Shown one piece after another: positions 27,895-48,433 of a stretch of DNA of 49,287 nt. This DNA is from an uncultured Clostridia bacterium (GTDB lineage: Bacteria > Bacillota > Clostridia > Oscillospirales > Ruminococcaceae), in NCBI GenBank assembly GCA_947627875.1, contig CANQXS010000019.1, positions 1 to 49,287 on the forward strand. The letters run 5' to 3'. The translations under genes and the position numbers were made by a program. Numbering within the stretch: position 1 is the first letter of the stretch; every line of letters begins with the position of its first letter. The notes under the pieces were generated by a model. It saw only the letters and a list, made by a program, of their open reading frames with translations, made no database searches and was not told where the DNA came from.

Positions 27895-30231
27895 ATGACT
27901 GATAAAACTTTTTATTCTCACTATGACCCTGTGAGCCGGACCTACCAGACAAACAAAGAACATCTCAGCGAATGCGCGGAGCTGTCTTCGGAAAAATGCG
28001 GCGTCGAGGAGCTTAAAAGCCTCGCATATATCGCAGGTCTTTTGCACGACTGCGGGAAATACTCCGCAGAGTGGCAGAATTATTTTCTGAAAAACATCGA
28101 AGGCAAAAACGCCGAGGAAAAGCTCGACCACTCCACCGCTGGAGGGATATTCGCCGAAAAGCTTATGAAGGATACCGTCGCCGCCGAGCTGATATCTTCG
28201 GCAATATACTGCCATCATGGGCTCCGAGACTCCTTTGATTTTGAGAAAGGGAAATTTCTGACGGACCTTCGCCGTGAAAAATCCGCGGATCTGCCCGTCG
28301 GGGAATGCATCGAAAACCTTACCGAAGAAATCGGCGAAAGCGTTCTCGATGAATACGCGAATAAAGCTTCTTCTGACGGCGACGCTGTTTTCAGACGCAT
28401 AATGCGGGCTGAAAGCAACGGCGGCAAGGACTTTGCCGCGGGAATGTGTCAGCGGCTTCTCATATCTCTTTTGATCGACGCCGACCGCCGCAATACCGAG
28501 GATTTTATGAACGGAGAAAGCGGCTTTTCGGAGATTTCGGCATCAAAAGAGCTCTGGGAGGAATGCCTCGGAAACATCGAATCGAAAATCGGCTCTCTTT
28601 CGGACGGCAGAGGAATAAACTCCTTCAGAAGGGAAATATCGGACATTTGCAGGCAAACAGCAGACAGCCCGAATCCAAGGTATATACTCAACGTTCCTAC
28701 CGGCGCGGGAAAAACGCTGTCGTCGCTTAGGTTTGCAGTGGCGAACGCGAAAAATTTCGGCAAGCGCAGAATAATATACGCAGCTCCATATCAGTCCATA
28801 ACGGAGCAGAACGCCGACGAGATAAGAGAAGCCCTCGGGCGGCCGGATATAGTTTTGGAGCACCATTCGAGCCTCATAGCCGACGACGGTTCCGACCGGC
28901 TGAGGTATGACCGCCTTACCGAGGACTGGGGCTGTCCCGTTGTTGTAACCACATCGGTCCAGCTCCTGAATACGATGTTTTCGTCAAGAAGCGGATGCGT
29001 AAGAAGATTCCGGAGCCTTTGCGACAGCATCGTCATTTTAGACGAGGTACAGGCTCTGCCGATAAAGGTCACTAAGCTTCTATGCCTTGCGGTAAATTTC
29101 CTGAGTCGATACGCGAATACGCTGTTTGTGCTTTGCTCAGCAACTTTGCCGCGCTTTGAAAAATACGGCATGCTTTCCGCGCCGCCGATGATACCCGACT
29201 CGGCGCGGTTTTACGGCGCATTCGTAAGAACGGAGATATCGGACGACACGGATATCTCCCCAACGGGAATGAGCATAGAGGAAGCCGCAGAATACATAAA
29301 GGAAAAGGCGGAGAAATACGGCGACGTTCTGTTTATCGCAAATACCAAGAGCTGCGCCGAAAAGGTTTTCAGACTTGTGGCGGAGTCCTGTCGGAATTAC
29401 GAGGTTTACCACCTGAGCACAAATATGTATCCGGAGCACCGCAGAAGAGTTATCTCGGCGCTGAAAAAGGGCGGCAGAAGGATATGCATAAGCACGCAGG
29501 TCGTAGAAGCGGGCGTAAATCTTTCGTTCCGATGCGTCATACGCTCCCTCGCGGGGCTCGACAGCGTTATTCAGGCTGCCGGACGCTGCAACCGTCACGC
29601 CGAGTTTGACAAAGGTCGGGTTTTTATCGTTAAAATGAACGGCGAAGCGGAAAACGTTTCCTCACTCAAAGAAATACGCACCGCCCAGGACGTTATGAAA
29701 TATGTTCTGAACCAATACCGCAGCCGCAGCGAAGACGATCTTCGCATCGATTCGGAGGAATTTATAAAAATGTACTTCGACCGTCTTTATGACAGGCTTG
29801 AAAGCGATCTGAGCTATCCCGTATGCGTAAACGGCGTTGCGACGACAATAGTTGACATGCTCTCGCGAAATCTAAAGCTCTGCCGAGAAAGAAACGGACA
29901 TGTTCTCCGTCAGTCCTTCAAGACCGCCGGCGATAAATTTGAAGTCATAGAGGACGACGGAAAGATATCGCTTATTGTGGGCGTGAGCGAAGCTCTTGAG
30001 CTTATCGGGGCGCTCGAAAGCCGAGATACTCCCCTCGGCGATAAAAAATCGCTTTTGCGGAGGCTTCAGTCGTATACCGTTTCGGTTTCGGAGCGGTTCC
30101 GCAAAAACGCATTAGACGGAATACGCCCTGCCTGGGACGGCAGACTGGCGGTTCTCGACGACAGATATTACGATCCGAAAACCGGCATTACCGAACAGCC
30201 GCGAAATATGCCGTTTTTGAATATAGACTGA
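27895..30231 (+). CDS. cas3: CRISPR-associated helicase-nuclease Cas3 (type I-C, HD domain fused)
   Basis: A 778-residue protein. The N-terminal HD nuclease has His51-Asp52 in GLLHDCGK and further histidines (LDHSTAGG, IYCHHGLRD). The SF2 helicase follows with Walker A NVPTGAGKTLSS (about 266), VILDEVQALP (about 380), the motif III segment LCSATLP, and motifs V and VI in STQVVEAGVNLSF and IQAAGRCNRH. Cas3 is recruited by Cascade at an R-loop and unwinds and degrades target DNA. It is first in the order cas3-cas5-cas8c-cas7-cas4-cas1-cas2, diagnostic of subtype I-C. The ribosome site (GAAGAGAAAG) is weak compared with those of the downstream genes. Confidence 0.97.
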   Translation: MTDKTFYSHYDPVSRTYQTNKEHLSECAELSSEKCGVEELKSLAYIAGLLHDCGKYSAEWQNYFLKNIEGKNAEEKLDHSTAGGIFAEKLMKDTVAAELISSAIYCHHGLRDSFDFEKGKFLTDLRREKSADLPVGECIENLTEEIGESVLDEYANKASSDGDAVFRRIMRAESNGGKDFAAGMCQRLLISLLIDADRRNTEDFMNGESGFSEISASKELWEECLGNIESKIGSLSDGRGINSFRREISDICRQTADSPNPRYILNVPTGAGKTLSSLRFAVANAKNFGKRRIIYAAPYQSITEQNADEIREALGRPDIVLEHHSSLIADDGSDRLRYDRLTEDWGCPVVVTTSVQLLNTMFSSRSGCVRRFRSLCDSIVILDEVQALPIKVTKLLCLAVNFLSRYANTLFVLCSATLPRFEKYGMLSAPPMIPDSARFYGAFVRTEISDDTDISPTGMSIEEAAEYIKEKAEKYGDVLFIANTKSCAEKVFRLVAESCRNYEVYHLSTNMYPEHRRRVISALKKGGRRICISTQVVEAGVNLSFRCVIRSLAGLDSVIQAAGRCNRHAEFDKGRVFIVKMNGEAENVSSLKEIRTAQDVMKYVLNQYRSRSEDDLRIDSEEFIKMYFDRLYDRLESDLSYPVCVNGVATTIVDMLSRNLKLCRERNGHVLRQSFKTAGDKFEVIEDDGKISLIVGVSEALELIGALESRDTPLGDKKSLLRRLQSYTVSVSERFRKNALDGIRPAWDGRLAVLDDRYYDPKTGITEQPRNMPFLNID

Positions 30232-30249: not shown

Positions 30250-30969
30250 TTGCACGAAAACAAAATTGAATTTGAGCTGACGGGCTCATATGCGCTTTTT
30301 TCGGACCCGATAACAAGGGCCGGCGGCGAAAAGCTGAGCTACCACGTTCCGACTTACGAAGCCCTCAAGGGGGTCGTTCAGAGCATCTATTGGAAGCCGA
30401 CGGTAGTGTGGATAGTCGACGCGGTAAGAATAATGAACCCCATTCAGACCGAGTCTAAGGGAATAAGACCTATTTCCTACAACGGCGGAAACGACCTGTC
30501 GTTTTACACCTATCTCAAAAACGTGAGATACAGGGTAAGAGCGCACTTTGAATGGAATCGGAACCGCCCCGAGCTCGCTTCGGACCGCGACGAAAACAAG
30601 CATCACAACATCGCGAAGCGAATGGTCGAGCGCGGCGGCAGGAGGGACATTTTTCTTGGGACAAGGGAATGCCAGGGCTACGTTGAGCCCTGCGCTTTCG
30701 ACGAAGGCGAAGGCTTTTACGACAGCATCGACGAGCTCGACTTCGGGTTTATGTACCACGGGATAACCTATGCCGACGAGGCAGTTTTGGACGAAGACCG
30801 CGGAGGAATGACGGTGAGATTTTTCCGCGCGGTGATGAAAAAAGGCGTTATAACGTTCCCGAGACCCGAGGATTGCACCTCAAAGCGCAGAATAAAGGAT
30901 ATGGAGATAAAGCCGTTCGGCGAAGGCAATTTCTCCGGCTTGAACGAATTCGGGGAGGCGGAGCTTTGA
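30250..30969 (+). CDS. cas5c: Cas5c, crRNA-processing RAMP endoribonuclease
   Basis: A 239-residue RAMP protein. In subtype I-C no Cas6 exists and Cas5c cuts pre-crRNA in the repeat. The residues corresponding to the catalytic Tyr-Lys-His triad known from Bacillus halodurans Cas5c can be placed at Tyr47 (QSIYW) and Lys117-His118 (ENKHHNIAKRM). The glycine-rich C-terminal part (GEGNFSGLN) closes the fold. The start is TTG at 30250 with AAGGAAG upstream. Its TGA overlaps the TTG of cas8c. The protein should stay bound to the 11-base 5' handle of the mature crRNA. Confidence 0.95.
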   Translation: MHENKIEFELTGSYALFSDPITRAGGEKLSYHVPTYEALKGVVQSIYWKPTVVWIVDAVRIMNPIQTESKGIRPISYNGGNDLSFYTYLKNVRYRVRAHFEWNRNRPELASDRDENKHHNIAKRMVERGGRRDIFLGTRECQGYVEPCAFDEGEGFYDSIDELDFGFMYHGITYADEAVLDEDRGGMTVRFFRAVMKKGVITFPRPEDCTSKRRIKDMEIKPFGEGNFSGLNEFGEAEL

Positions 30970-32864
30970 ACTGGATAAGAGAGCTTTTGAATGTTTATGA
31001 GCTTAAATCCGACATCGTCGGCATAGAGCAAAAGGGCAGGTTCGGAGAAAGGTTGGTTCTGCTTCCACAGTATCACTCCACACAAGTGGCAACTGTAACA
31101 GTAGTTCTTTCTGGTTCCGGAGACTTTTTGAGAGCAACAAGAGTTGCTAAAGACGATGCGGTAACGGTTATCCCCGTCACTGAGGATTCTGCTTGCGCCA
31201 GAACATCAACACATATAGCCGCGCACCCGCTTTGTGATAAACTTGAATATATTGCCGCAGACTATAATATCTACGCTCCTAAAATCGATAAGAACTCATC
31301 AGAAAAACATCGGCAGTATCTTGAGGGAATTAAGGACTGGTACGAGTCTGAACATTCTCATGAAAAAGTCCGTGCAATATATGAATACATCAAAAAAGGA
31401 TGTATCATCAGCGATCTTATCCAAAGCGGGATTCTCGTGCCGGACGAATCCGGAAAAATCAAGAGCGTAAAAGAGGAATTCGTAAGATTCTCTGTCGAAA
31501 CAGATTGGAGAATAGATTCCTCTGCTCCGGAATGCTGGCTTGACAGTACGCTGAGAGACTCATATATTGGCTACGTTAATAGCAAGAGTGCAACAACGGG
31601 ATTTTCTTATTTGAGCGGAGAAGTCGTCCCGCTTTCGCGTCTTCAGCCGAAGAAAATACGTTATGACGGAGACAGTGCAAAGCTCATATCCTCAAATGAC
31701 AGCGGCGGCTTTACATACAGAGGGCGCTTTTCGACCGCCGAAGAAGCCTTCGCAATAGGATATGAAGAATCGCAGAAGATTCACAACGCCCTTAAATGGC
31801 TGATAAGGAATCAGGGCAGCGTTGAGGTAAAAAGCAGGGACAAAAGAGACGAATTCAAGGGTCTCTGCGTAGTAGTGTGGGAATCGGCGATGAAGCCCCT
31901 GCCGGATTACGGCTCGAGCACCGAGGAAATATCCTCGGTAAAAGATATGTTTACCGAGGAAGAAGAGCATTACGACACCGATCCCGCGAGCGCAGCTAGG
32001 TTTAATTCCGCGATGGAAGGGTATATGAAAGCCGCGGATTTTTCTTTCAAAACGCTCATTATGGCATTTAACGCCGCCACTCAGGGGAGGCTGTCGGTTA
32101 TCGAGGCAAGCGAGCTCAGCACGAGCGAATACCTCGAAAACATCAAAAAATGGCATAACGGCTGCGGGCTTGTTCACTATTCTTCGGACAAAGGGACTCG
32201 CAGGTTTTACGGCGTTCCGGGATTAAAGGATATCGCAGGCATACTGTATGGGCAAGAGAAGATAAACGGCGACGAAAAGCTGCTTCAAAGCTTCTGCAAC
32301 CGCCTCAGACCCTGCATCATCTACGGCAGACGGCTGCCCGCCGATATCGTAAACCTTGCGGTAAACAGAGCTTCGTCGCCGACATCATTCGACCCCAAGA
32401 GCAACGAATGGGAGCGCGCGCTCTCGCTCGCCTGCTCGTTTATCAAGAAAAAAGAAACAGAAAACGGAAGCAAGGAGGAATGGAAGGTGTCGCTTAACAC
32501 CGAAAGCACAGACAGAAGCTATCTTTTCGGGAGGCTGCTCGCGGTCGCCGACAGGATAGAATACCTCACCTATGACAAAGACGAGGACAGGCTCACCAAC
32601 GCAATGAGGTATATGAATACCTTTTCCCGCCAGCCTATGAAAACTTGGGCAAATATTCACGATAGGATAATACCCTATCTTCAGAAGCTGAAAGTCGGGC
32701 AGAGAATCTACTATGAAAGGCTTATAGGTGAGATCACCGAAAAAATGAGCGAAAAAGACTTTGCGGACAATTCCCCGCTCAGCGGGCTTTATCTGCTCGG
32801 ATTCTACAATCAGTCATACGATTTAAGAAGCAAAAAAGAACAGGAGGAAAATGAAGATGAGTGA
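30966..32864 (+). CDS. cas8c: Cas8c (Csd1), large Cascade subunit
   Basis: A 632-residue protein of the Csd1 family: the N-terminus NWIRELLNVYE, a middle part with TGFSYLSGEVVPLSRLQPKKIRYDG, and a C-terminal helical domain containing SYLFGRLLAVADRIEYLTYDKDEDR and SPLSGLYLLGFYNQ. It recognises the PAM and opens the target; in I-C an internal start gives the small subunit Cas11c. Candidate internal starts exist but none was decided. The start is TTG at 30966 overlapping the cas5 stop (TTGA); the longer upstream frame lies inside cas5. Bases about 31075-31650 are distinctly AT-richer than the rest of the operon. Confidence 0.95.
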   Translation: MNWIRELLNVYELKSDIVGIEQKGRFGERLVLLPQYHSTQVATVTVVLSGSGDFLRATRVAKDDAVTVIPVTEDSACARTSTHIAAHPLCDKLEYIAADYNIYAPKIDKNSSEKHRQYLEGIKDWYESEHSHEKVRAIYEYIKKGCIISDLIQSGILVPDESGKIKSVKEEFVRFSVETDWRIDSSAPECWLDSTLRDSYIGYVNSKSATTGFSYLSGEVVPLSRLQPKKIRYDGDSAKLISSNDSGGFTYRGRFSTAEEAFAIGYEESQKIHNALKWLIRNQGSVEVKSRDKRDEFKGLCVVVWESAMKPLPDYGSSTEEISSVKDMFTEEEEHYDTDPASAARFNSAMEGYMKAADFSFKTLIMAFNAATQGRLSVIEASELSTSEYLENIKKWHNGCGLVHYSSDKGTRRFYGVPGLKDIAGILYGQEKINGDEKLLQSFCNRLRPCIIYGRRLPADIVNLAVNRASSPTSFDPKSNEWERALSLACSFIKKKETENGSKEEWKVSLNTESTDRSYLFGRLLAVADRIEYLTYDKDEDRLTNAMRYMNTFSRQPMKTWANIHDRIIPYLQKLKVGQRIYYERLIGEITEKMSEKDFADNSPLSGLYLLGFYNQSYDLRSKKEQEENEDE

Positions 32865-33741
32865 ACTTAAAGGAAAAATCGATTTTGTGGCGCTTATATC
32901 GGCGACAAACGCCAACCCCAACGGTGACCCGCTTAACGGCAACCGCCCGCGCGAAAGCTTTGAAGGCTACGGCGAAATATCCGACGTCTGCATAAAGCGC
33001 AAGATCAGAAACCGTTTCCAGGATGACGATATCGGCGAAAGGATATTCGTTCAGTCGGATGACAGAGCGGACGACGGCTTCGACAGCCTTCATTCAAGAG
33101 CGGACGGCTGTAAAGAATTCAGCGACGCTATGAAGAAAAAAGATAAAGCCCAAATGGCAAAAGTCGCTTGTAAAACTTGGGCAGACGTAAGAATGTTCGG
33201 TCAGGTGTTTGCATTTAGTGATAAAAAGAAAAAAGATAATGAATCAGACAGCAAAAAAGAAAGCGGTGTTTCCGTCGGCGTAAGAGGACCCGTTTCGATT
33301 CACCCCGCGATGAGCGTTTCGCCTGTCGAGCTTGTAAGCACTCAGATAACCAAGAGCGTAAACGGAGAATCGAAAGAAGGACGCGCTTCGGACACTATGG
33401 GAATGAAGCACCGCGTTACATACGGGCTTTATGTGGTAAAGGGCAGCGTAAACGTTCAGCTTGCCGGAAAAACGGGCTTTTCTCAGGAAGACGCCGAAAA
33501 CCTCAAACACGCTCTGAGGACGCTGTTTGAAAACGACGCCTCATCGGCAAGACCCGAGGGCAGTATGGAGGTCGAGAGGCTGTATTGGTGGCAGCACAGC
33601 GAAAAAACTCCCTCAGTCTCAACGGCGAAGATACACCGCAGCGTAAAAATAACCGCCAAAACCGACAGACCCGTCTGCTTCGGCGATTACGAAGTTGCGC
33701 TTGAAAATCCCGAGGGCTGCGTTGAGCCGGAGGTATACTGA
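32857..33741 (+). CDS. cas7c: Cas7c (Csd2), Cascade backbone
   Basis: A protein of about 294 residues of the Csd2 family, opening with SELKGKIDFVALISATNANPNGDPLNGNRPR, typical of I-C Cas7, and containing VRGPVSIHPAMSVSPVELVSTQITKS. Multiple copies coat the crRNA spacer. Two ATGs compete: 32851 is only three bases from AGGAGG, while 32857 (MSELKG) has nine bases spacing and the family's usual start, so the latter is chosen. The gene overlaps the end of cas8c. A Lys/Asp/Ser-rich loop (KKKKDNESDSKKES, about residues 125-140) looks like a variable surface insertion. Confidence 0.95.
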   Translation: MSELKGKIDFVALISATNANPNGDPLNGNRPRESFEGYGEISDVCIKRKIRNRFQDDDIGERIFVQSDDRADDGFDSLHSRADGCKEFSDAMKKKDKAQMAKVACKTWADVRMFGQVFAFSDKKKKDNESDSKKESGVSVGVRGPVSIHPAMSVSPVELVSTQITKSVNGESKEGRASDTMGMKHRVTYGLYVVKGSVNVQLAGKTGFSQEDAENLKHALRTLFENDASSARPEGSMEVERLYWWQHSEKTPSVSTAKIHRSVKITAKTDRPVCFGDYEVALENPEGCVEPEVY

Positions 33742-34416
33742 TTGTTTGCCGAAGACGACTATCTGCAGCTTTCGGGAATACAGCACTTCGCATTCTGCAA
33801 GCGCCAGTGGGGGCTCGTTTACTTAGAGCTTCAATGGATAGAGAATCTCAGGACTGCGGAGGGCAGAATAGTTCATGAGCGCGCGCATGACAGCTTTTTC
33901 ACCGAAAAGCGCGGAGATCTTATAATATCCCGCGGGATACAGGTAAGCTCGAAAGATCTGGGGATAAGCGGCGAATGCGACGTAGCGGAATTTCATAAAG
34001 CCGCTTCGGAATCGGCTCAAGCCGTATACATTCCCGAATATGACGGCTGTTTCACCGTTGTTCCGGTCGAATACAAGCGCGGAACTCCGAAAACCGAGGA
34101 ATACGATATGCTCCAGCTCTGCGCTCAGGCTCTCTGCCTCGAAGAGATGCTCTGCGCTCAGATCCCCGAGGGATATATCTATTACGCCGAAACAAAACGG
34201 CGCCGAAGCGTTGAATTTACCGTCGAACTCAGAGACAGGGTAAAAAGCGTCGTTATGCAGATGCATGACTACAGCTCAAGAGGAATAACTCCCTCTGCCA
34301 AGCGCACAAAATCCTGCAACGCCTGCTCGGTAAAGGACATATGTCTGCCGCAGCTCGAAAAAAAGAAAAGCGCCGCGGAATACATCAGGTCGGCGATTTC
34401 CGATACGGAGACATAA
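33742..34416 (+). CDS. cas4: Cas4 nuclease, spacer-acquisition factor
   Basis: A 224-residue RecB-family nuclease. Cysteines for the iron-sulfur cluster appear in HFAFCKRQW (N-terminal) and SCNACSVKDICLP (C-terminal). The nuclease motifs are ISGECDVAEF (Asp) and VPVEYKRGTPK (Glu-x-Lys). Cas4 trims pre-spacers and selects those with the right PAM before Cas1-Cas2 integration. The start is TTG immediately after the cas7 TGA, with GGAGG seven or eight bases upstream. Confidence 0.95.
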   Translation: MFAEDDYLQLSGIQHFAFCKRQWGLVYLELQWIENLRTAEGRIVHERAHDSFFTEKRGDLIISRGIQVSSKDLGISGECDVAEFHKAASESAQAVYIPEYDGCFTVVPVEYKRGTPKTEEYDMLQLCAQALCLEEMLCAQIPEGYIYYAETKRRRSVEFTVELRDRVKSVVMQMHDYSSRGITPSAKRTKSCNACSVKDICLPQLEKKKSAAEYIRSAISDTET

Positions 34417-34418
34417 TT

Positions 34419-35450
34419 ATGAAAAAACTGCTTAACACCCTTTATATAACGTCGCCCGGAAAGTATCTCTCGCTTGACGGCGAAAATATCGTCGTCAGCG
34501 AAAAGGACGAAGAGGTAACGAGGGTCCCGCTGCACAATATCGAGGCGGTAGTTACCTTCGGATATACCGGAGCAAGCCCCGCTCTTATGGGCGCCTGCGC
34601 CGAGAGAAACATTTCTCTGAGCTTTTTGACCCCTTCCGGCAGATTTCTTGCAAGGGTCACGGGGAGCCAACGGGGAAATATCCTATTAAGGAGAGAGCAG
34701 TACCGAATTGCGGGCAGCCCTGAGGAAAGCCTGAAAATCGCGCGGAACTTTATCGTCGGAAAGCTCTACAACTCAAAATGGGTAATCGAGCGCGTATGCA
34801 GAGATTACCCTATGAGAGTCGACGTCGAAAAGCTCAGGGGCGTATCGGTAAAGCTCAGCGGAGCTGTGATCGAAGCAAAGGGCGCAGCTTCGGCGGACTT
34901 TCTCAGAGGCGTTGAAGGAAAGGCGGCTTCGGATTTTTTCTCGGTATTCGACGATATGATCCTGCAGCAAAAAACCGATTTCGCCTTTTCGGGGAGGTCT
35001 CGCAGACCCCCTCTCGACCCGATAAACGCGATGCTTTCTTTCGCATATACCCTTCTGACCGGCATGTGCTCGTCGGCGCTTGAAGCGGTAGGGCTCGACC
35101 CATATGAAGGCTTCTTTCATACCGAGCGTCCCGGCAGAGCCTCGCTTTCGCTCGACCTTGTGGAAGAGCTTCGCAGCGTTATGGCTGACAGATTCGTTCT
35201 GACCCTTATCAACAAGCGTATAGCCGACCCTTCCTGCTTTATCAAAAAGGAAAGCGGAGCGGTCATTATGACCGATGCCTTCAGAAAGACTTTTCTCTCG
35301 CAATGGCAGTCAAAAAAACAGGAGGTTATAACTCACCCGTTTTTGGACGAAAAGGTAGAATGGGGAATGGTGCCGTTTTCGCAGGCGCTTCTGCTTGCGC
35401 GGTATATCCGCGGCGACCTTGACGAATATCCCCCGTTCTTCTGGAAGTAG
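34419..35450 (+). CDS. cas1: Cas1 integrase of the adaptation complex
   Basis: A 343-residue Cas1 with the N-terminal beta domain (KKLLNTLYITSPGKYLSLDGENIVVSEKD) and the catalytic alpha domain. The metal ligands fall in AKGAASADFLRGVEGKAASDFF (Glu), GFFHTERPGRASLSLDLVEEL (His and Asp/Glu). It inserts new spacers at the leader end together with Cas2. The ATG at 34419 lies three bases after the cas4 stop, with GGAG upstream; a longer frame reaches into cas4 without a ribosome site. Confidence 0.96.
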   Translation: MKKLLNTLYITSPGKYLSLDGENIVVSEKDEEVTRVPLHNIEAVVTFGYTGASPALMGACAERNISLSFLTPSGRFLARVTGSQRGNILLRREQYRIAGSPEESLKIARNFIVGKLYNSKWVIERVCRDYPMRVDVEKLRGVSVKLSGAVIEAKGAASADFLRGVEGKAASDFFSVFDDMILQQKTDFAFSGRSRRPPLDPINAMLSFAYTLLTGMCSSALEAVGLDPYEGFFHTERPGRASLSLDLVEELRSVMADRFVLTLINKRIADPSCFIKKESGAVIMTDAFRKTFLSQWQSKKQEVITHPFLDEKVEWGMVPFSQALLLARYIRGDLDEYPPFFWK

Positions 35451-35458
35451 GTGAAGAA

Positions 35459-35749
35459 ATGCTCGTGCTTATAACCTACGATGTAAACACCGAAACGCCG
35501 GAAGGAAAAAGGCGCCTTCGCAAGGTAGCCAAAGAATGCGTGAATTACGGTCAGCGGGTCCAGAATTCGGTATTTGAATGCAGTCTCGACGCGGCGACGC
35601 TCTGTAAGGTAAAAAACTCTCTCGAAAAAATAATCGACAAAGACAAAGACAGCCTGAGATTTTATTACCTCGGAAATAATTACAAAAGCAAGGTCGAGCA
35701 TATCGGCGCAAATCCGGGCTTTGATGTAAATGACCCGCTTATAATTTAG
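35459..35749 (+). CDS. cas2: Cas2, structural partner of Cas1
   Basis: A 96-residue ferredoxin-fold protein: MLVLITYDVNTETPEGKRRLRKVAKEC with the conserved Asp, then RVQNSVFECSLDAAT. It dimerises and bridges two Cas1 dimers during spacer integration. GGTGAAG precedes the ATG, nine bases after cas1. It ends at the leader, and its stop codon overlaps the first base of the leader hairpin. Confidence 0.97.
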   Translation: MLVLITYDVNTETPEGKRRLRKVAKECVNYGQRVQNSVFECSLDAATLCKVKNSLEKIIDKDKDSLRFYYLGNNYKSKVEHIGANPGFDVNDPLII

Positions 35750-35918
35750 TGCGGACCCTCAGCGAACATAAAATTCGAGGGTTTTCGCACCGCAAATTTT
35801 GATTTAATATGCAGAGACAGTTGACTTTTTAACATCTGTTTGAAATTCTCTGCATATTTCGCAAATGTTTTTTCGCGAATTTGCCCAAAGATATTTTTAA
35901 TTTTTGTGCAGATTTGCT
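35749..35918 (+). promoter_or_regulatory. CRISPR leader with two inverted repeats
   Basis: 170 AT-rich bases between cas2 and the first repeat. An imperfect stem GTGCG..CCCTC / GAGGG..CGCAC spans 35749-35790, directly after the cas2 stop. A 12-bp perfect inverted repeat AATATGCAGAGA / TCTCTGCATATT lies at 35806-35817 and 35847-35858, enclosing TTGACT (35821-35826), which could be a -35 box; no convincing -10 was found at the right distance. A 6-bp repeat GCAAAT/ATTTGC and an AT-rich tract follow up to the array. Confidence 0.75.
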
Positions 35919-38900
35919 GTCGGGCTCCATACGGAGCCCGTGGATTGAAATGTGGAGAAAGAGAAAGAAAAAAGGGCAAAAAAAGGTCGGGCTCCATACG
36001 GAGCCCGTGGATTGAAATATGACACGATGGAAGAGGCGGCCAGCGAGCGAGCGGTCGGGCTCCATACGGAGCCCGTGGATTGAAATGTCCTCCTATCTAT
36101 GCCGTATTGCGAGCTTGCCGTCGGGCTCCATACGGAGCCCGTGGATTGAAATTCTGTTGGTGGCTCCGGTATCTACGTCGATCCCGCGTCGGGCTCCATA
36201 CGGAGCCCGTGGATTGAAATGGTTTTTTCTCTTTTTGCGAGAACGGGGGAGGGCGGTCGGGCTCCATACGGAGCCCGTGGATTGAAATTTTCGCCTTCCC
36301 ACAGCTCTCTGTCTATGACTTCGTCGGGCTCCATACGGAGCCCGTGGATTGAAATGAAACTCGTAGGCTTCCTCCTCGTCGCCGTCGAGGTCGGGCTCCA
36401 TACGGAGCCCGTGGATTGAAATGTATATGGTTATGCTCTGCGGAAATCTTGCCTTGTCGGGCTCCATACGGAGCCCGTGGATTGAAATTGCCATCGTCCA
36501 TAATCCGCGAAATCTGTTTGAAGTCGGGCTCCATACGGAGCCCGTGGATTGAAATAACTGATTATCTCGATTTTTCTCCTATGTCTTTTGTCGGGCTCCA
36601 TACGGAGCCCGTGGATTGAAATTCTACGGTTTCATCGGTGACGCCCTCGTAAAGCTCGTCGGGCTCCATACGGAGCCCGTGGATTGAAATATATTTGCCT
36701 TTTCTGCCTCATAGCATAGCCAACTGTCGGGCTCCATACGGAGCCCGTGGATTGAAATATCAAAATAACGCCGCTGAACCGCGGGCAGCCCTAGTCGGGC
36801 TCCATACGGAGCCCGTGGATTGAAATGTTCAGCTTTGGCAGACGGAAGAATACAAAAGCAGTCGGGCTCCATACGGAGCCCGTGGATTGAAATGTGCTGC
36901 TGTCATTGTCGATGATTACAATGCCGTCGTCGGGCTCCATACGGAGCCCGTGGATTGAAATGATTCAAAGGTCGTAGTCAGACTCTCGGCAGTGAGTCGG
37001 GCTCCATACGGAGCCCGTGGATTGAAATATTACCGAAAACAGGCAGTTTCATAGCGGATTCTGGTCGGGCTCCATACGGAGCCCGTGGATTGAAATACAA
37101 AATATAGGAGGTTACATCATGGTAACAAAGTCGGGCTCCATACGGAGCCCGTGGATTGAAATGATTGATCTGAACGCAACACAAGCTGCGATTCGTGTCG
37201 GGCTCCATACGGAGCCCGTGGATTGAAATATTATAAGCGTTAATCATCGAAAGAACCGATTCGTCGGGCTCCATACGGAGCCCGTGGATTGAAATACAGA
37301 ATCGACACGATAGTTTTATCGCTTAACTGTCGGGCTCCATACGGAGCCCGTGGATTGAAATTTCCATTCGGCAAGGACTGATTTTTCCTCATCGGTCGGG
37401 CTCCATACGGAGCCCGTGGATTGAAATAAAAGAGATGCCGCGACCGGCAAGATGAGTCTGGTCGGGCTCCATACGGAGCCCGTGGATTGAAATATGTACC
37501 ATCCACAAAGAACGGCGACGACGGCAAGTCGGGCTCCATACGGAGCCCGTGGATTGAAATTTGTTTGCAATGTTGATAAAAGCGTCTGACATTGTCGGGC
37601 TCCATACGGAGCCCGTGGATTGAAATAAGGAATTGGCAAAGGCTCTGGGCGTGACAGCGATGTCGGGCTCCATACGGAGCCCGTGGATTGAAATTTGCCT
37701 TGTTTCAGGTTTAACATACTTCATTTTGTCGGGCTCCATACGGAGCCCGTGGATTGAAATTTTGTGACTTCATACAAACATCAAAATTTTTTGAGTCGGG
37801 CTCCATACGGAGCCCGTGGATTGAAATGGAATGACGACTTGAGATTATATATCTGCTAAGTGTCGGGCTCCATACGGAGCCCGTGGATTGAAATACGTGC
37901 GTATCAGATGCAGGACACCATCGACAAGTCGGGCTCCATACGGAGCCCGTGGATTGAAATATCGTTCAGCCTGACTTCGCGCTCGACGCTGCTTCGTCGG
38001 GCTCCATACGGAGCCCGTGGATTGAAATTTCATCTATATTTTCTCCTTGTTAAAGATATTAACGTCGGGCTCCATACGGAGCCCGTGGATTGAAATTTAT
38101 ATTGATGTCAAGCAACAATTTTATAATCGGTCGGGCTCCATACGGAGCCCGTGGATTGAAATTCATTTGCCTTGTCAAGCTCCATCTGCAAGCGCGTCGG
38201 GCTCCACACGGAGCCCGTGGATTGAAATTCTGCCTCGTCGGAGGCTTCCTCGGTGGCGTCTGCGTCGGGCTCCACACGGAGCCCGTGGATTGAAATTTCC
38301 TTGCTGGAGTGTCCGTCCTGAACGTGTCAAGTCGGGCTCCACACGGAGCCCGTGGATTGAAATGTTCGGACAAGCTCCGCAGTTGACGGGCTTTCCGATG
38401 TCGGGCTCCACACGGAGCCCGTGGATTGAAATGTCCTCCTCCCAAAATCTTTCGGCAGCTTTCACGGTCGGGCTCCACACGGAGCCCGTGGATTGAAATG
38501 GGACACCTACGATCCCGAATATTTCAGGCTTGCGTCGGGCTCCACACGGAGCCCGTGGATTGAAATGAAAGAGCTTCTGAATCTGACGAATCAGGAAGTC
38601 GTCGGGCTCCACACGGAGCCCGTGGATTGAAATAAGAATTCGCTGTCTCCGTCCGCGCTCTTTTCAGGTCGGGCTCCACACGGAGCCCGTGGATTGAAAT
38701 ATTCCTCAAACTCCGGGTATAATAATGAGTATAGTCGGGCTCCACACGGAGCCCGTGGATTGAAATAAACACATACCTTAAAAGGAAAAGCCCCCAGAAC
38801 GTCGGGCTCCACACGGAGCCCGTGGATTGAAATTACGCTGCTTTCGCTGTTGGCACACTTCGCGCAGTCGGGCTCCACACGGAGCCCGTGGATTGAAATA

Positions 38901-39904
38901 TTTTTAATATGTTCGGGGTCTTCAACAAAGTTGTCGGGCTCCACACGGAGCCCGTGGATTGAAATGTCCATTAAAATACCTCCTAAATTATTTTTATATC
39001 GTCGGGCTCCACACGGAGCCCGTGGATTGAAATTTACAAAAATTTCTTTCATATCCGTACCCCCATACGTCGGGCTCCACACGGAGCCCGTGGATTGAAA
39101 TTGTAGAGCGTTTCGCTGACGCTGCCTCCGGCGCTCGTCGGGCTCCACACGGAGCCCGTGGATTGAAATATACTTGCACGAGCTTGATATTTTCGCAAAG
39201 CACGTCGGGCTCCACACGGAGCCCGTGGATTGAAATATAATCTGCTCAATGTTGTTATCCTGCATTACTGTCGGGCTCCACACGGAGCCCGTGGATTGAA
39301 ATGCAAATCAACATTGACGACCGCGAAGGCGTTTGGGTCGGGCTCCACACGGAGCCCGTGGATTGAAATGAAAAAGCGTCGGAAATGTGCTTTGAAAAGG
39401 GCGTCGGGCTCCACACGGAGCCCGTGGATTGAAATTCTCCGCCGTGTGTCGTACAAGCGCAAAAAAGAGGTCGGGCTCCACACGGAGCCCGTGGATTGAA
39501 ATCCCCTTGCGCCGATTGTGACTTTCTCGCCCGTCGTCGGGCTCCACACGGAGCCCGTGGATTGAAATGCTTTTGACGGCTTGGCGGAATTAAAAGAACA
39601 AGGTCGGGCTCCACACGGAGCCCGTGGATTGAAATAGTCGCCGAAGCCCTCAACACATCTCCGACACAGTCGGGCTCCACACGGAGCCCGTGGATTGAAA
39701 TATGCCCTTTACGGCGTGTCTGATTTTGCGGGCGGGTCGGGCTCCACACGGAGCCCGTGGATTGAAATATCTGACTGCGAGAAACGGAAAATACTATATC
39801 GCCGTCGGGCTCCACACGGAGCCCGTGGATTGAAATGTGCAACCTCCAAAGTACCCGACAATGCTGTAAAGTCGGGCTCCACACGGAGCCCGTGGATTGA
39901 AATG

Positions 39905-40404
39905 AGCTATGTCAAAGATGCAATACAACAAGAACCCGTCGGGCTCCACACGGAGCCCGTGGATTGAAATTCTTTTCTTCGAGCAGCGTTTTTGCAAGAG
40001 ATTTGTCGGGCTCCACACGGAGCCCGTGGATTGAAATATATATTTCTGCCGTTCAGCCTTCAGCGCAAACAAGTCGGGCTCCACACGGAGCCCGTGGATT
40101 GAAATTGAAAGAAGCGGTTGATGAAGCGTTGAATGAGGTCGGGCTCCACACGGAGCCCGTGGATTGAAATGTTCTTACAAGTCAGAGTCAAGTCAGGTCG
40201 AGTAGTCGGGCTCCACACGGAGCCCGTGGATTGAAATGCACTCCATCGGCAAGACTGCCCTCGGCTCGGAGTCGGGCTCCACACGGAGCCCGTGGATTGA
40301 AATGAGCTATGTCAAAGATGCAATACAACAAGAACCCGTCGGGCTCCACACGGAGCCCGTGGATTGAAATTCTTTTCTTCGAGCAGCGTTTTTGCAAGAG
40401 ATTT
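39905..40404 (+). repeat. Two-spacer duplication inside the array
   Basis: Spacers 60 and 61 (39904-39937 and 39971-40004) recur exactly as spacers 66 and 67 (40304-40337 and 40371-40404), with four different spacers between the copies. Confidence 0.95.
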
Positions 40405-41783
40405 GTCGGGCTCCACACGGAGCCCGTGGATTGAAATGCCCATGTAGAAGGCGTCGATCTCGTGACCGTCCACGTCGGGCTCCACACGGAGCCCGTGGAT
40501 TGAAATACCTTCGCATAGAGCAACGACGCATTGCTGTTGATGTCGGGCTCCACACGGAGCCCGTGGATTGAAATTTAACCGCCGTTGAAACAGCGCAAAA
40601 AGACGAAACGTCGGGCTCCACACGGAGCCCGTGGATTGAAATGTCCTGGGGCTCTGTGAACGGAAATATCCCACTGTCGGGCTCCACACGGAGCCCGTGG
40701 ATTGAAATGGAACACGACGTTCCGCTCGATCCATCGCCGGAGCCGTCGGGCTCCACACGGAGCCCGTGGATTGAAATTTGTTAAATCCCGACACGCCGGC
40801 AGCGATCAGGGCGTCGGGCTCCACACGGAGCCCGTGGATTGAAATATTCCAGACGATCATCGACTTCACGCCGAAGCCTGTCGGGCTCCACACGGAGCCC
40901 GTGGATTGAAATGCCCTGCTCCCGAGCTTATTTACGGTCGAAAGCCGGTCGGGCTCCACACGGAGCCCGTGGATTGAAATTTAAAAAAATTTTCAAAAAA
41001 GGCTTGACATACAGTCGGGCTCCACACGGAGCCCGTGGATTGAAATGCCTCCTTGCCGAGGGGGTGTCACAACCCCACCAGTCGGGCTCCACACGGAGCC
41101 CGTGGATTGAAATACCTTTGCCGGATCTTCACGGTGTACGCCGGCGGGTCGGGCTCCACACGGAGCCCGTGGATTGAAATCTAAATGATTCAAATCGTTT
41201 TTGGCATTTGCGGCGTCGGGCTCCACACGGAGCCCGTGGATTGAAATTTCCTGTTGTCGTTCAAAAGAACTATGCCTTTGCGTCGGGCTCCACACGGAGC
41301 CCGTGGATTGAAATATCTGCAGATATTCTTCGAGATTCCAAGTCGGGCGTCGGGCTCCACACGGAGCCCGTGGATTGAAATGGATTCGCTATGGACGACG
41401 ACCCCGCGCATTGCGTCGGGCTCCACACGGAGCCCGTGGATTGAAATGTCGTCAGTAGACTGCTGCGCCCAGAAATCACGTGTCGGGCTCCACACGGAGC
41501 CCGTGGATTGAAATGCCGTAAACGGCATCTTATATCTGCTCCTGCTCTTGTCGGGCTCCACACGGAGCCCGTGGATTGAAATTTGAAAGGAGTGACACAC
41601 ATGGACGAAAAGAAACGTCGGGCTCCACACGGAGCCCGTGGATTGAAATGTTCTTCCATGGTCTGTCTTTTGTCGGGTCCGTGTCGGGCTCCACACGGAG
41701 CCCGTGGATTGAAATGAACGAGGAGGGAGAGAAATGGCAGCAAGACCGTGGTCGGGCTCCACACGGAGCCCGTGGATTGAAAT

Positions 41784-42282
41784 TTCCTCCAAAATCTGCG
41801 ACAAGTGCGATTCGACGTCGGGCTCCACACGGAGCCCGTGGATTGAAATTGGAAAAATAACCGTAGGCAGCGAGTTCGACATGTCGGGCTCCACACGGAG
41901 CCCGTGGATTGAAATATGCTTATACTAAAATCATTTCTATTAACAAAAAGTCGGGCTCCACACGGAGCCTGTGGATTGAAATGACTTAATCCAAAGAAAC
42001 AAGCGTTCACCAACATGTCGGGCTCCACACGGAGCCCGTGGATTGAAATTTCCTCCAAAATCTGCGACAAGTGCGATTCGACGTCGGGCTCCACACGGAG
42101 CCCGTGGATTGAAATTGGAAAAATAACCGTAGGCAGCGAGTTCGACATGTCGGGCTCCACACGGAGCCCGTGGATTGAAATATGCTTATACTAAAATCAT
42201 TTCTATTAACAAAAAGTCGGGCTCCACACGGAGCCTGTGGATTGAAATGACTTAATCCAAAGAAACAAGCGTTCACCAACAT
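41784..42282 (+). repeat. Four-spacer tandem duplication inside the array
   Basis: Spacers 88-91 (41784-42016) are repeated exactly and immediately as spacers 92-95 (42050-42282). The point-mutated repeat (GGAGCCTG instead of GGAGCCCG) is present at the same place in both copies (41950 and 42216), so repeat and spacers were copied as a block of about 266 bases. Confidence 0.97.
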
Positions 42283-43533
42283 GTCGGGCTCCACACGGAG
42301 CCCGTGGATTGAAATGCCTGCAGTATGAAGGACAGATACGAAACGGAATGTCGGGCTCCACACGGAGCCCGTGGATTGAAATATGCTTGCCAAGGTCAGA
42401 TTTTCCGGCAGTTCCGGTCGGGCTCCACACGGAGCCCGTGGATTGAAATATCAACAAGAACAGAATGATCAGCACTGATCGATGTCGGGCTCCACACGGA
42501 GCCCGTGGATTGAAATATTTATAAGCTAAACGATAACATAAGTTTTCAAGTCGGGCTCCACACGGAGCCCGTGGATTGAAATATACCGAAGGCACATTCG
42601 TGATGAATGAATCACGTCGGGCTCCACACGGAGCCCGTGGATTGAAATATCGCGCTGGGTGCGGGAATCTTGCTTGCCGCTGGTCGGGCTCCACACGGAG
42701 CCCGTGGATTGAAATAATGTTAGCCGATGCACAATAAGAGATGTCTTAAGTCGGGCTCCACACGGAGCCCGTGGATTGAAATAGGTCTTCTCCGATATTA
42801 AGGTTTCTGCGAAAGAGTCGGGCTCCTCGCGGAGCCCGTGGATTGAAATACCTCTCGGTGGTGAAGTGATGGTAAAAAGAAAAGTCGGGCTCCTCGCGGA
42901 GCCCGTGGATTGAAATTTCGTCGATCACCGTTTCGGGGAGCGCATACACGTGTCGGGCTCCTCGCGGAGCCCGTGGATTGAAATGAGGACAACTCGTTCT
43001 CGCTCGTCGTGTTCGACCCGTCGGGCTCCTCGCGGAGCCCGTGGATTGAAATCCAAAGCTCTTCGCGCTCTTCGTCGGTAAAACCAGTCGGGCTCCTCGC
43101 GGAGCCCGTGGATTGAAATTGCGCTGCTTGCGCTGCTGACAAACTTCCCGAAGTCGGGCTCCTCGCGGAGCCCGTGGATTGAAATGTTTCAGGCGATAAG
43201 CTGTTGAATTTGTCGATGATGTCGGGCTCCACACGGAGCCCGTGGATTGAAATCTGAAAAGCAAGGACGACCCCGATCTGCTTCACGTCGGGCTCCTCAC
43301 GGAGCCCGTGGATTGAAATGCGCGCTGCTCACCACGTCGCGCACGACCGGCGTCGGGCTCCACACGGAGCCCGTGGATTGAAATAAGCCCGAAAGCCTCG
43401 GTTATTATCGCCGCCGACACGTCGGGCTCCACACGGAGCCCGTGGATTGAAATGCGAATATTGGTCAAATACCGAATTCCGACAGGGTGAAAACTGCAAC
43501 AAAATTTCGGTGGCATTCCCGGCGCAATAAAAA

Positions 43534-46551: not shown

Positions 46552-48225
46552 TTACCCATTTTCCTTTGACTTCAATATTACCGTCTCGATAGTTGTCTCA
46601 TTTTCCAAGGAAAGTTCGGTCACTTCCTGACCGTTTAGCGGAACAGGGAAATTGAAACTAATGCTCTTGATCCAGCAACCGTCTTTCCGTTTTTGTGGAT
46701 ATAGCTCGATTTTCTCGATAAACGCCCTCATAAACTCTTTTCGCTCCACTTCGGTTGCCGCTCCGTAAACCTCGTCAAAGGCCAACAGAAGCCGATAGAT
46801 ATTGTCGCCGGAAATCTTCTCCTGACGGATGCTGCGTATCTGACTTTTCACATCATCCATCTGTATCTCGATTTCTTCTATCTTCTCGTATTGTTCGTCA
46901 TACCGGCGCTGTAAATCAAGAATCTTGCGGTCATAATACGGATCGCCCACATCAAGGCTGTCCATCTGTCGCTCCAAACGGGCTTTTGTTCCTAATGTCT
47001 GGCGAAGCTGCCCCTGCAATACCTCCAACTGCTTCTCCATATCCGACGTATCTACGGCGGAGCCAATCTTCGCCTTGATTGCCTCAGAAAAGCGGGGATT
47101 TCTTACCATCGCGGATATAATGTCCGCCACCATATCGTTGATTTCTGTCTGTTCAATATTAGTGCGGAATGTGCAGCTATGGCCTGTCGGTGTGACGGTA
47201 TTCTTACAGTAATAGTAATATCTCGTTTTGTTGTCCTTGCTGTGCGCTTTGGAGATATTGCCGTACATACCTTTCCCGCAGCAGGGGCATCTCAATATGC
47301 CGGATAGTATATGGGCGTGTTCCGTATCGTGAATTTTCTCCCGCCGATAGGCATTGGCTTTCCGCTTCTCATGCGCCAAGTTCCAATCTTCTTCAGATAC
47401 AATCGCCTCATGCTGTCCCTCATAAATCGGGAACTCCGATTGTTCAACAATGTGCATCTCGTTTCTGGTTCCCAACTTCTTTTCTGTTTTCCGTCTGCCA
47501 TAGGCGATTTTTCCCATGTAAACCGGATTGTCCAGAACATCCTTTACAAAGTTTGCAGAAAAACCGGGGATTGTCCCATTCTGGCGCAGCTTTTTGGTGT
47601 AACCGTGGGTATTCAGGTATTTTGCCACACCGCTGACACCATCGTTTGTATGGATATATCTGTCATAAATGATACGGATAACCTCGACTTCATCATCTGC
47701 AATCAACATCTGACCGTTTTGCAGCTTATATCCGTAAGGGGCAAAACCGCCGTTCCATTTTCCCTCGCGGGCTTTCTGTTCCCGCCCCGCCATGGTCTGT
47801 GTGCGGATATTCTCGCGTTCAATCTCTGCCACAGCAGACAGAACGGAAATCATCAGCTTGCCGGAATCCTTGGAACTGTCAATACCATCCTCCACGCAGA
47901 TCAGGTTTACTCCGAAATCCTGCATAAGCTGCAAGGAATTAAGCACATCGGCGGCATTACGACCGAAACGGGACAGCTTAAAGACAAGGACAAAGGAAAC
48001 CCCATCTTTGCCGGCTTCAATATCTGCAAGCATTCTCTGGAACTCATGCCGTCCTTGGATATTCTTTCCTGAAAAACCCTCGTCCGAATACTCCCCAACA
48101 ATGACCATATCTTCATATTCTGCATATTTCCGAAGTTTGTCTCTCTGCGCATCCAGACTGTAACCGTCTACCTGCATAGAGGTGGACACTCGCGTATAGA
48201 TATAGCACTTAGTTTGTTTCTTCAT
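46552..48225 (-). CDS. Large serine recombinase (intact)
   Basis: A 557-residue site-specific recombinase. The catalytic domain has the nucleophile Ser14 in YIYTRVSTSMQ, then SLDAQRDKL and the arginine-bearing VFKLSRFGRN. The recombinase domain (about 165-270, APYGYKL, YMGKIAYGRR) is followed by a zinc ribbon (LRCPCCGKGMYG with later Cys residues) and a coiled coil (about 385-470). It should integrate and excise the element. The ATG at 48225 is chosen because GGAGG lies eight bases upstream; a GTG three codons earlier sits inside the ribosome site. It overlaps the HTH gene by 17 bases. It belongs to the same superfamily as the broken gene at 1-1243 but is clearly a different lineage. Confidence 0.95.
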   Translation of the reverse strand: MKKQTKCYIYTRVSTSMQVDGYSLDAQRDKLRKYAEYEDMVIVGEYSDEGFSGKNIQGRHEFQRMLADIEAGKDGVSFVLVFKLSRFGRNAADVLNSLQLMQDFGVNLICVEDGIDSSKDSGKLMISVLSAVAEIERENIRTQTMAGREQKAREGKWNGGFAPYGYKLQNGQMLIADDEVEVIRIIYDRYIHTNDGVSGVAKYLNTHGYTKKLRQNGTIPGFSANFVKDVLDNPVYMGKIAYGRRKTEKKLGTRNEMHIVEQSEFPIYEGQHEAIVSEEDWNLAHEKRKANAYRREKIHDTEHAHILSGILRCPCCGKGMYGNISKAHSKDNKTRYYYYCKNTVTPTGHSCTFRTNIEQTEINDMVADIISAMVRNPRFSEAIKAKIGSAVDTSDMEKQLEVLQGQLRQTLGTKARLERQMDSLDVGDPYYDRKILDLQRRYDEQYEKIEEIEIQMDDVKSQIRSIRQEKISGDNIYRLLLAFDEVYGAATEVERKEFMRAFIEKIELYPQKRKDGCWIKSISFNFPVPLNGQEVTELSLENETTIETVILKSKENG

Positions 48226-48433
48226 TGTCGCCACCTCCGTTAGACCCGTTCTTCATCAGTCCTTCATTTTTGATGTAATACTCCAGAAGCCGCAAAACAT
48301 ATTCCGGCGCATGACGGTTTCCAAGCTCCCATTCCGTCACAGTCCGATATGGTATCTGAAAATATTGGCAAAACTCTTTCCTCGTTAAGCCGGTACTCTC
48401 CCGCAGCTCCCGTATCTTCTCTTTACAATCCAT
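48209..48433 (-). CDS. Small helix-turn-helix (XRE-type) regulator
   Basis: A 74-residue protein: KIRELRESTGLTRKEFCQYFQIPYRTVTEWELGNRHAPEYVLRLLEYY is a Cro/CI-type HTH, with a short Gly/Asn-rich tail. GAGG lies eight bases before the ATG. It is co-transcribed with, and overlaps, the recombinase gene. A promoter enclosed by a 16-bp inverted repeat lies directly upstream, a natural site for autoregulation. Confidence 0.88.
   Translation of the reverse strand: MDCKEKIRELRESTGLTRKEFCQYFQIPYRTVTEWELGNRHAPEYVLRLLEYYIKNEGLMKNGSNGGGDNEETN

Follow-up and report, generated by a model that had tools for sequence, protein, structure and literature searches.

Two CRISPR spacers that differ only at third codon positions point to pI genes of two inovirus-like elements

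Introduction

The DNA analysed here is a stretch of 49,287 nucleotides (the window) from an uncultured bacterium of the Ruminococcaceae (GenBank assembly GCA_947627875.1, contig CANQXS010000019.1). It carries a type I-C system of clustered regularly interspaced short palindromic repeats (CRISPR), and two spacers of its array, spacer 44 (38834..38866) and spacer 108 (43120..43152), raise a question: how did one array come to hold two spacers that differ at seven positions and still encode the same peptide? A first-pass annotation, made from the letters of the window, had proposed that two diverged mobile elements had supplied them, at the same offset, from homologous genes kept under purifying selection. 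Our results bear this out and show that the gene is most likely that of the inovirus pI (Zot-like) ATPase, the assembly motor of these filamentous phages.

Results

The two spacers share one peptide and differ in one codon phase

Spacers 44 and 108 are both 33 nt long and were identical at 26 of 33 positions in a direct, ungapped alignment. The mismatches, at positions 2, 11, 17, 20, 23, 29 and 32, all fell in one codon phase; the chance that seven mismatches fall in one of the three phases is 2.3e-4. When read on the minus strand, in the third frame of the reverse complement, both spacers gave REVCQQRKQR at the same offset. Six of the seven differences lie inside the ten complete codons and none of them alters the peptide. 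The seventh, at position 32, occupies the third place in the partial codon preceding the peptide, and would be synonymous if this codon is Leu, as in many homologues, giving (L)REVCQQRKQR. In total, 7 of the 11 third-codon positions differed. The length, identity, mismatch positions, codon phase and shared peptide recorded in the first-pass annotation were all confirmed by this comparison.

The all-pairs comparison that the annotation had also suggested was run on the 106 distinct spacers. The pair 44/108 scored 19 (matches minus mismatches) and every other pair 8 or less, with maxima of 7 to 13 over 20 sets of shuffled spacers. Mean identity over the 5,565 same-offset pairs was 0.255, and the runner-up to 44/108 agreed at 18 of 34 positions. 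At the peptide level (BLOSUM62) the pair scored 53, compared with 30 for the runner-up pair and maxima of 29-32 in five shuffled sets. The pair is the sole clear outlier among the 5,565 pairs, and no second pair of the synonymous type was seen among the 106 distinct spacers. Chance as the origin of the pair was rejected by these scores against the shuffles and by the single-phase mismatches.

The peptide most likely belongs to the pI (Zot-like) ATPase family

Relaxed versions of the motif matched 21 viral and 22 bacterial stretches, and 43 of 43 had a pI-like context at the site; these were judged by context, some contigs occur in both collections, and the one lysine position of the pattern was taken from the family itself. 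The pattern E[VIM]CQQRKQR, which carries no lysine constraint, gave one viral match, locus L034, which was also recovered by the pI profile. CQQRKQRK gave 10 viral matches, of which a single one lay in a long open reading frame (ORF), with 340 codons against no more than 43 for the rest: the pI-like locus L135, with LRDICQQRKQRKMIIGTAQ and the flank CATTT. A pattern allowing three mismatches matched 23 of 396 genomes of the host's family, among them the own genome through the two spacers themselves, and a reversed-pattern control matched 18, indicating that most of these matches are due to chance. On reading, only L006, L008 and L014 among them were pI-like, all with SEVSQQRKQR.

A matrix was built from 38 distinct pI site peptides, which came from profile-search loci, several of them also present in the motif scans; the seeds of profile A1 were two loci that the three-mismatch motif had picked out. 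REVCQQRKQR scored 30.2 bits, within the span of the 38 sites (11.1-34.6), and the runner-up among 773 six-frame 10-mers of the spacers scored 0.3 bits. Of 645,667 10-mers from open frames of at least 60 codons, the best outside pI reached 21.7 bits, in L009, a locus brought in by the motif search itself, and the next 14.4; 10-mers of at least 12 bits were counted as pI if [STCA]xQ followed, and nine exceptions were read individually. Loci of the array itself (L001, L002, L071, L131) were excluded from the matrix, homologue-site and protospacer adjacent motif (PAM) analyses.

In pI the site is a well-conserved xE[IV][CST]QQRKQR segment, which follows the DE motif and precedes the GTSQ/ATAQ stretch. 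At the cysteine position most homologues carry C, S or T, and QQRKQR is mostly followed by K, V or I (sets of 71 and 87 homologues, with identical rows merged and homologues gapped at the site skipped; 45 of the 87 rows were viewed). L008, L104 and L097 were above the cut-off of Zot (PF05707), and L014, L135 and L034 were linked to the family through alignment with its members. L008 and L014 matched phrog_197 (Zot-like) and phrog_20922 (head morphogenesis). The best solved relative of the pI profile was 2r2a, a Neisseria Zot domain, which matched weakly (E 0.013); in it the site comes after the DE motif and before the next strand. Relatives matched 19 phage records, 8 named 'Inovirus sp.' (ATPases) and 11 bajarodino virus (labelled Zonula occludens toxin where a label was listed). 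They also occurred in IMG/VR contigs, which were about 4-9 kb long, and in Anaerotruncus and Streptococcus genomes, among others. Within the family 37 of 396 genomes had them, and within the order 9 of 394. The L135 contig is 4,269 nt long, with ORFs of 48, 228, 446, 84 and 295 aa in a row; its pI aligned with Zot-positive proteins, and none of its ORFs was assigned as a coat or replication gene.

A TTT PAM may account for the shared boundary

The PAM was mapped by comparing the array with 31 genomes of the genus, with 9 candidates scored per genome and a chosen subset of the matches read. TTT stood directly 5' of the target in 18 of 21 spacers with targets at 0-2 mismatches (the rest TTA, TTC and CTT), showing that the array has a consistent 5' PAM. 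TTT is catalogued as the PAM of a type I-C system in Lachnoclostridium (PMC8482600).

On the coding strand the last base of both spacers is an A, which opens the codon following QQRKQR. Together with a TTT flank, this A would make that codon AAA (Lys). TTT is then the antisense of the lysine codon, so PAM conservation can account for the common boundary. With TTT as the PAM, most spacers taken from this conserved part of pI would be expected to start here. TTT was found at the homologous position, at this offset and strand, in 6 of 87 pI homologues, including L135 and L104; the only other TTT common to all six within about 20 nt of the site was the one shifted by one base. L135 and L104 (a locus from a genome of the host's family), both with the flank CATTT, were the nearest PAM-bearing homologues of spacer 108, at 7 mismatches. 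When the 106 spacers were compared with 49 inovirus loci, the best matches were spacer 108 (7 mismatches, L135) and spacer 44 (8 mismatches, L184), both at this site, and the next had 9.

Other arrays of the genus yielded 274 spacers, read from stretches of nine genomes (one of which gave none), and no spacer for this site was among them; there is thus no sign of a hotspot. Pairs at less conserved sites go unrecognised, so ascertainment accounts in part for the conserved position of this one. The first-pass annotation had taken the identical boundaries to suggest a strong PAM or acquisition preference at the site. This is supported only in part: the array has a PAM, and the lysine codon that supplies it in some pI genes can fix the boundary with no added preference; none of the 274 genus spacers falls here.

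The CRISPR-Cas locus and its array

The window is contig C19 of a 2.57-Mb genome and contains a type I-C cas operon, a leader-like stretch and then the array, all on the plus strand. The gene order is cas3-cas5-cas8c-cas7-cas4-cas1-cas2: cas3 at 27895..30231 (Cas3-like_C_2, Cas3_HD), cas5 of the Cas5d family at 30250..30969 (PF09704), cas8c (csd1) at 30873..32864 (PF09709, 351 bits; the match starts at residue 60 and the ORF start is probably over-extended), cas7 at 32851..33741 (PF05107), cas4 at 33742..34416 (PF01930), cas1 at 34341..35450 (PF01867) and cas2 at 35459..35749 (PF09827, 97.6 bits). The presence of cas8c (csd1) together with cas5, cas7, cas3, cas4, cas1 and cas2 places the locus in type I-C, which it resembles in this gene order and in its spacers of 32-36 nt; its PAM differs, being TTT where TTC is the commonest. 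The repeats end in GTGGATTGAAA(T), an ending typical of type I-C. The leader-like stretch (35750..35918, read directly between cas2 and the first repeat) adjoins the first repeat, so that spacer 1 is taken as the youngest.

The array (35919..43453) has 113 repeats, each 33 nt long (GTCGGGCTCC..ACGGAGCCCGTGGATTGAAAT and variants), which enclose 112 spacers; of the spacers, 106 are distinct. Every one of the repeats ends in T, and spacers 52 and 55, whose flanks are TTA and TTC, are also preceded by T, indicating that this T is seemingly part of the repeat. Spacers 60-61 are repeated as 66-67 (39904-40404), and a block of four spacers at 41784-42016, which contains a variant repeat, recurs head to tail at 42050-42282; the copies are identical in both cases. 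A large serine recombinase (Resolvase, Recombinase, zinc ribbon) lies downstream of the array on the minus strand (46552-48234).

Among spacers 49-63 (39170-40137), 13 of 15 (49-59, 62, 63) matched contigs C8 and C76 of the same-genus genome G414 with 0-2 mismatches, and seven ORFs tested on C8 matched terminase, portal, head protease, sheath, tape-measure, tail and baseplate families. This run looks like one burst of acquisition, perhaps primed, against one tailed prophage. Spacer 76 (40981-41013) is AT-rich with a TTGACA element. Eight genomes of the genus contain stretches 84-97% similar to it, and these often lie close to the end of a contig; within 3 mismatches, its own genome has no second copy of it. 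Spacer 64 had a five-mismatch match in its own genome (contig C10, 52749-52782, locus L120), where the flank is GTT, not TTT. The whole array matched 6 phage records, none of them a convincing new target. Nine pieces of MT838487.1 (a human-faecal 'Bacteriophage sp.'), between 25 and 459, matched the array at 68%, as if that segment carried a CRISPR array with similar repeats.

Discussion

Taken together, the shared peptide, the PAM, the strand and the offset indicate that spacers 44 and 108 are very probably separate type I-C captures, each from a different inovirus-like element and each from its gene for pI (the Zot-like morphogenesis ATPase). The two captures begin at the same pI codon. The source viruses would have AAA (Lys) directly after QQRKQR, with its antisense as the PAM, and Cas4-Cas1-Cas2 would have cut at the same place both times from the PAM derived from this codon. 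Spacer 108, being leader-distal, is presumably the older capture, and the two sources would belong to distinct inovirus lineages; the age order rests on the polarised acquisition of spacers. The CRISPR RNA (crRNA) of each spacer would be complementary to the pI coding strand and would guide Cascade-Cas3 against its own virus. Seven cross-mismatches separate spacers 44 and 108, one of them at seed position 2, so that cross-protection is uncertain.

Several results weigh against this assignment. Neither an exact protospacer of spacer 44 or 108 nor REVCQQRKQR in any codons was found in the two collections scanned (0 matches in viral_contigs and 0 in genome_contigs). No known virus gave a near-exact DNA match, the best with a PAM having 7 mismatches in 33, and the nearest PAM-bearing sites had 10-11 mismatches to spacer 44. 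Six sets of shuffled spacers compared with the same 49 inovirus loci gave minima of 8, 8, 9, 9, 10 and 10; 7-8 mismatches are therefore weak as DNA evidence. What carries weight is that both spacers fall on one site and one strand, and the assignment depends on the combination of peptide, PAM, strand and offset. TTT was absent from the site in 81 of the 87 homologues. L014, L135 and L034 were below the Zot PF05707 cut-off, L034 being without any Pfam match. The own genome had no pI match at E 0.001; from the genus (31 genomes) came only three weak partial matches (one with the first profile, two with the second). The annotation had expected the two spacers to match orthologous copies of one gene in different phages, next to the same PAM; this held only at the level of homologues, since no exact protospacer was found.

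Because the peptide is short and no exact protospacer was recovered, the segment might have come from another protein family that happens to hold REVCQQRKQR. We consider this very unlikely: the relaxed motifs matched pI-like genes wherever the frame was a long ORF, nothing outside pI scored above 21.7 bits in the matrix scan, and PAM, strand and offset fit real pI genes in which Lys comes next. That one spacer was duplicated and then mutated inside the array, which does hold duplicated blocks, has a next to negligible probability. The known duplicates show no differences between copies, and mutations in array DNA would not be expected to keep to a single codon phase; a mutated in-array duplicate was rejected on the single-phase differences. 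The first-pass annotation had read the pair as one lineage met again after it had drifted or escaped. On such an account a single inovirus lineage would have drifted, or escaped spacer 108 by synonymous mutation, before spacer 44 was captured, in agreement with the leader-distal place of spacer 108 and with readable differences that are all synonymous. Among 95 pairs of pI sequences with an identical site peptide and 6-8 differences in 33 nt, 7 were 80-95% identical over the aligned domain and 1 above 95%, showing that closely related pI can differ this much at the site. However, 87 of these 95 pairs, a mixed sample with shared sequences and so not independent, were less than 80% identical, which makes two distinct inoviruses likelier than drift or escape of one. 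Changes at 7 of 11 third positions would also far exceed what escape needs. We therefore depart from the annotation on this point and regard a single lineage as unlikely.

The site might also have been captured twice because it is a genuine hotspot of acquisition, or because crRNA 108 primed uptake at exactly this place, as mismatched crRNAs can prime in type I systems. Such a preference is improbable here, given that none of the 274 spacers from the genus's other arrays falls on the site. Apart from 44 and 108, no spacer came within fewer than 9 mismatches of the 49 inovirus loci, unlike the run 49-63 against one tailed phage; PAM conservation suffices, and detection of the pair at a conserved site is in part a matter of ascertainment. 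Two captures from different inovirus-like elements remain the reading that we prefer, and the pair is most likely an ordinary CRISPR record of two encounters with related filamentous phages, not mechanistically new. It is conceivable, at rather long odds, that the QQRKQR-K site of pI is a recurrent, evolutionarily constrained CRISPR target, re-acquired by arrays from successive inovirus species. If this were true, a lysine codon that is itself favoured would supply the PAM, the seed would fall mostly in near-invariant residues, and viruses could change at the site mainly through synonymous positions.

CRISPR spacers directed at inoviruses are already known (Roux et al. 2019, PMC6813254), and our pair resembles them in its kind of target. 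The survey described there retained only matches with 0-1 mismatch, whereas the sources here are unsampled and were recognised through peptide, PAM and strand; in addition, two spacers of one array here match the same orthologous codon. Passages of PMC8530359 on gut Inoviridae report 56 that are CRISPR-targeted, 54 with Zot, and Clade-1 representatives that, except two, are predicted targets of Clostridiales. The kind of virus is the same there and the host group related, and the difference is that a spacer pair at one orthologous site is absent from those passages. None of the papers listed by our searches looked like a report of spacer pairs that differ only synonymously, which does not prove that none has been published.

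Spacers that differ solely at third codon positions can expose the targeted gene family through peptide, PAM and strand, and such identification works even when neither source virus is present in the collections searched. The pair 44/108 points to unsampled inoviruses of this host.

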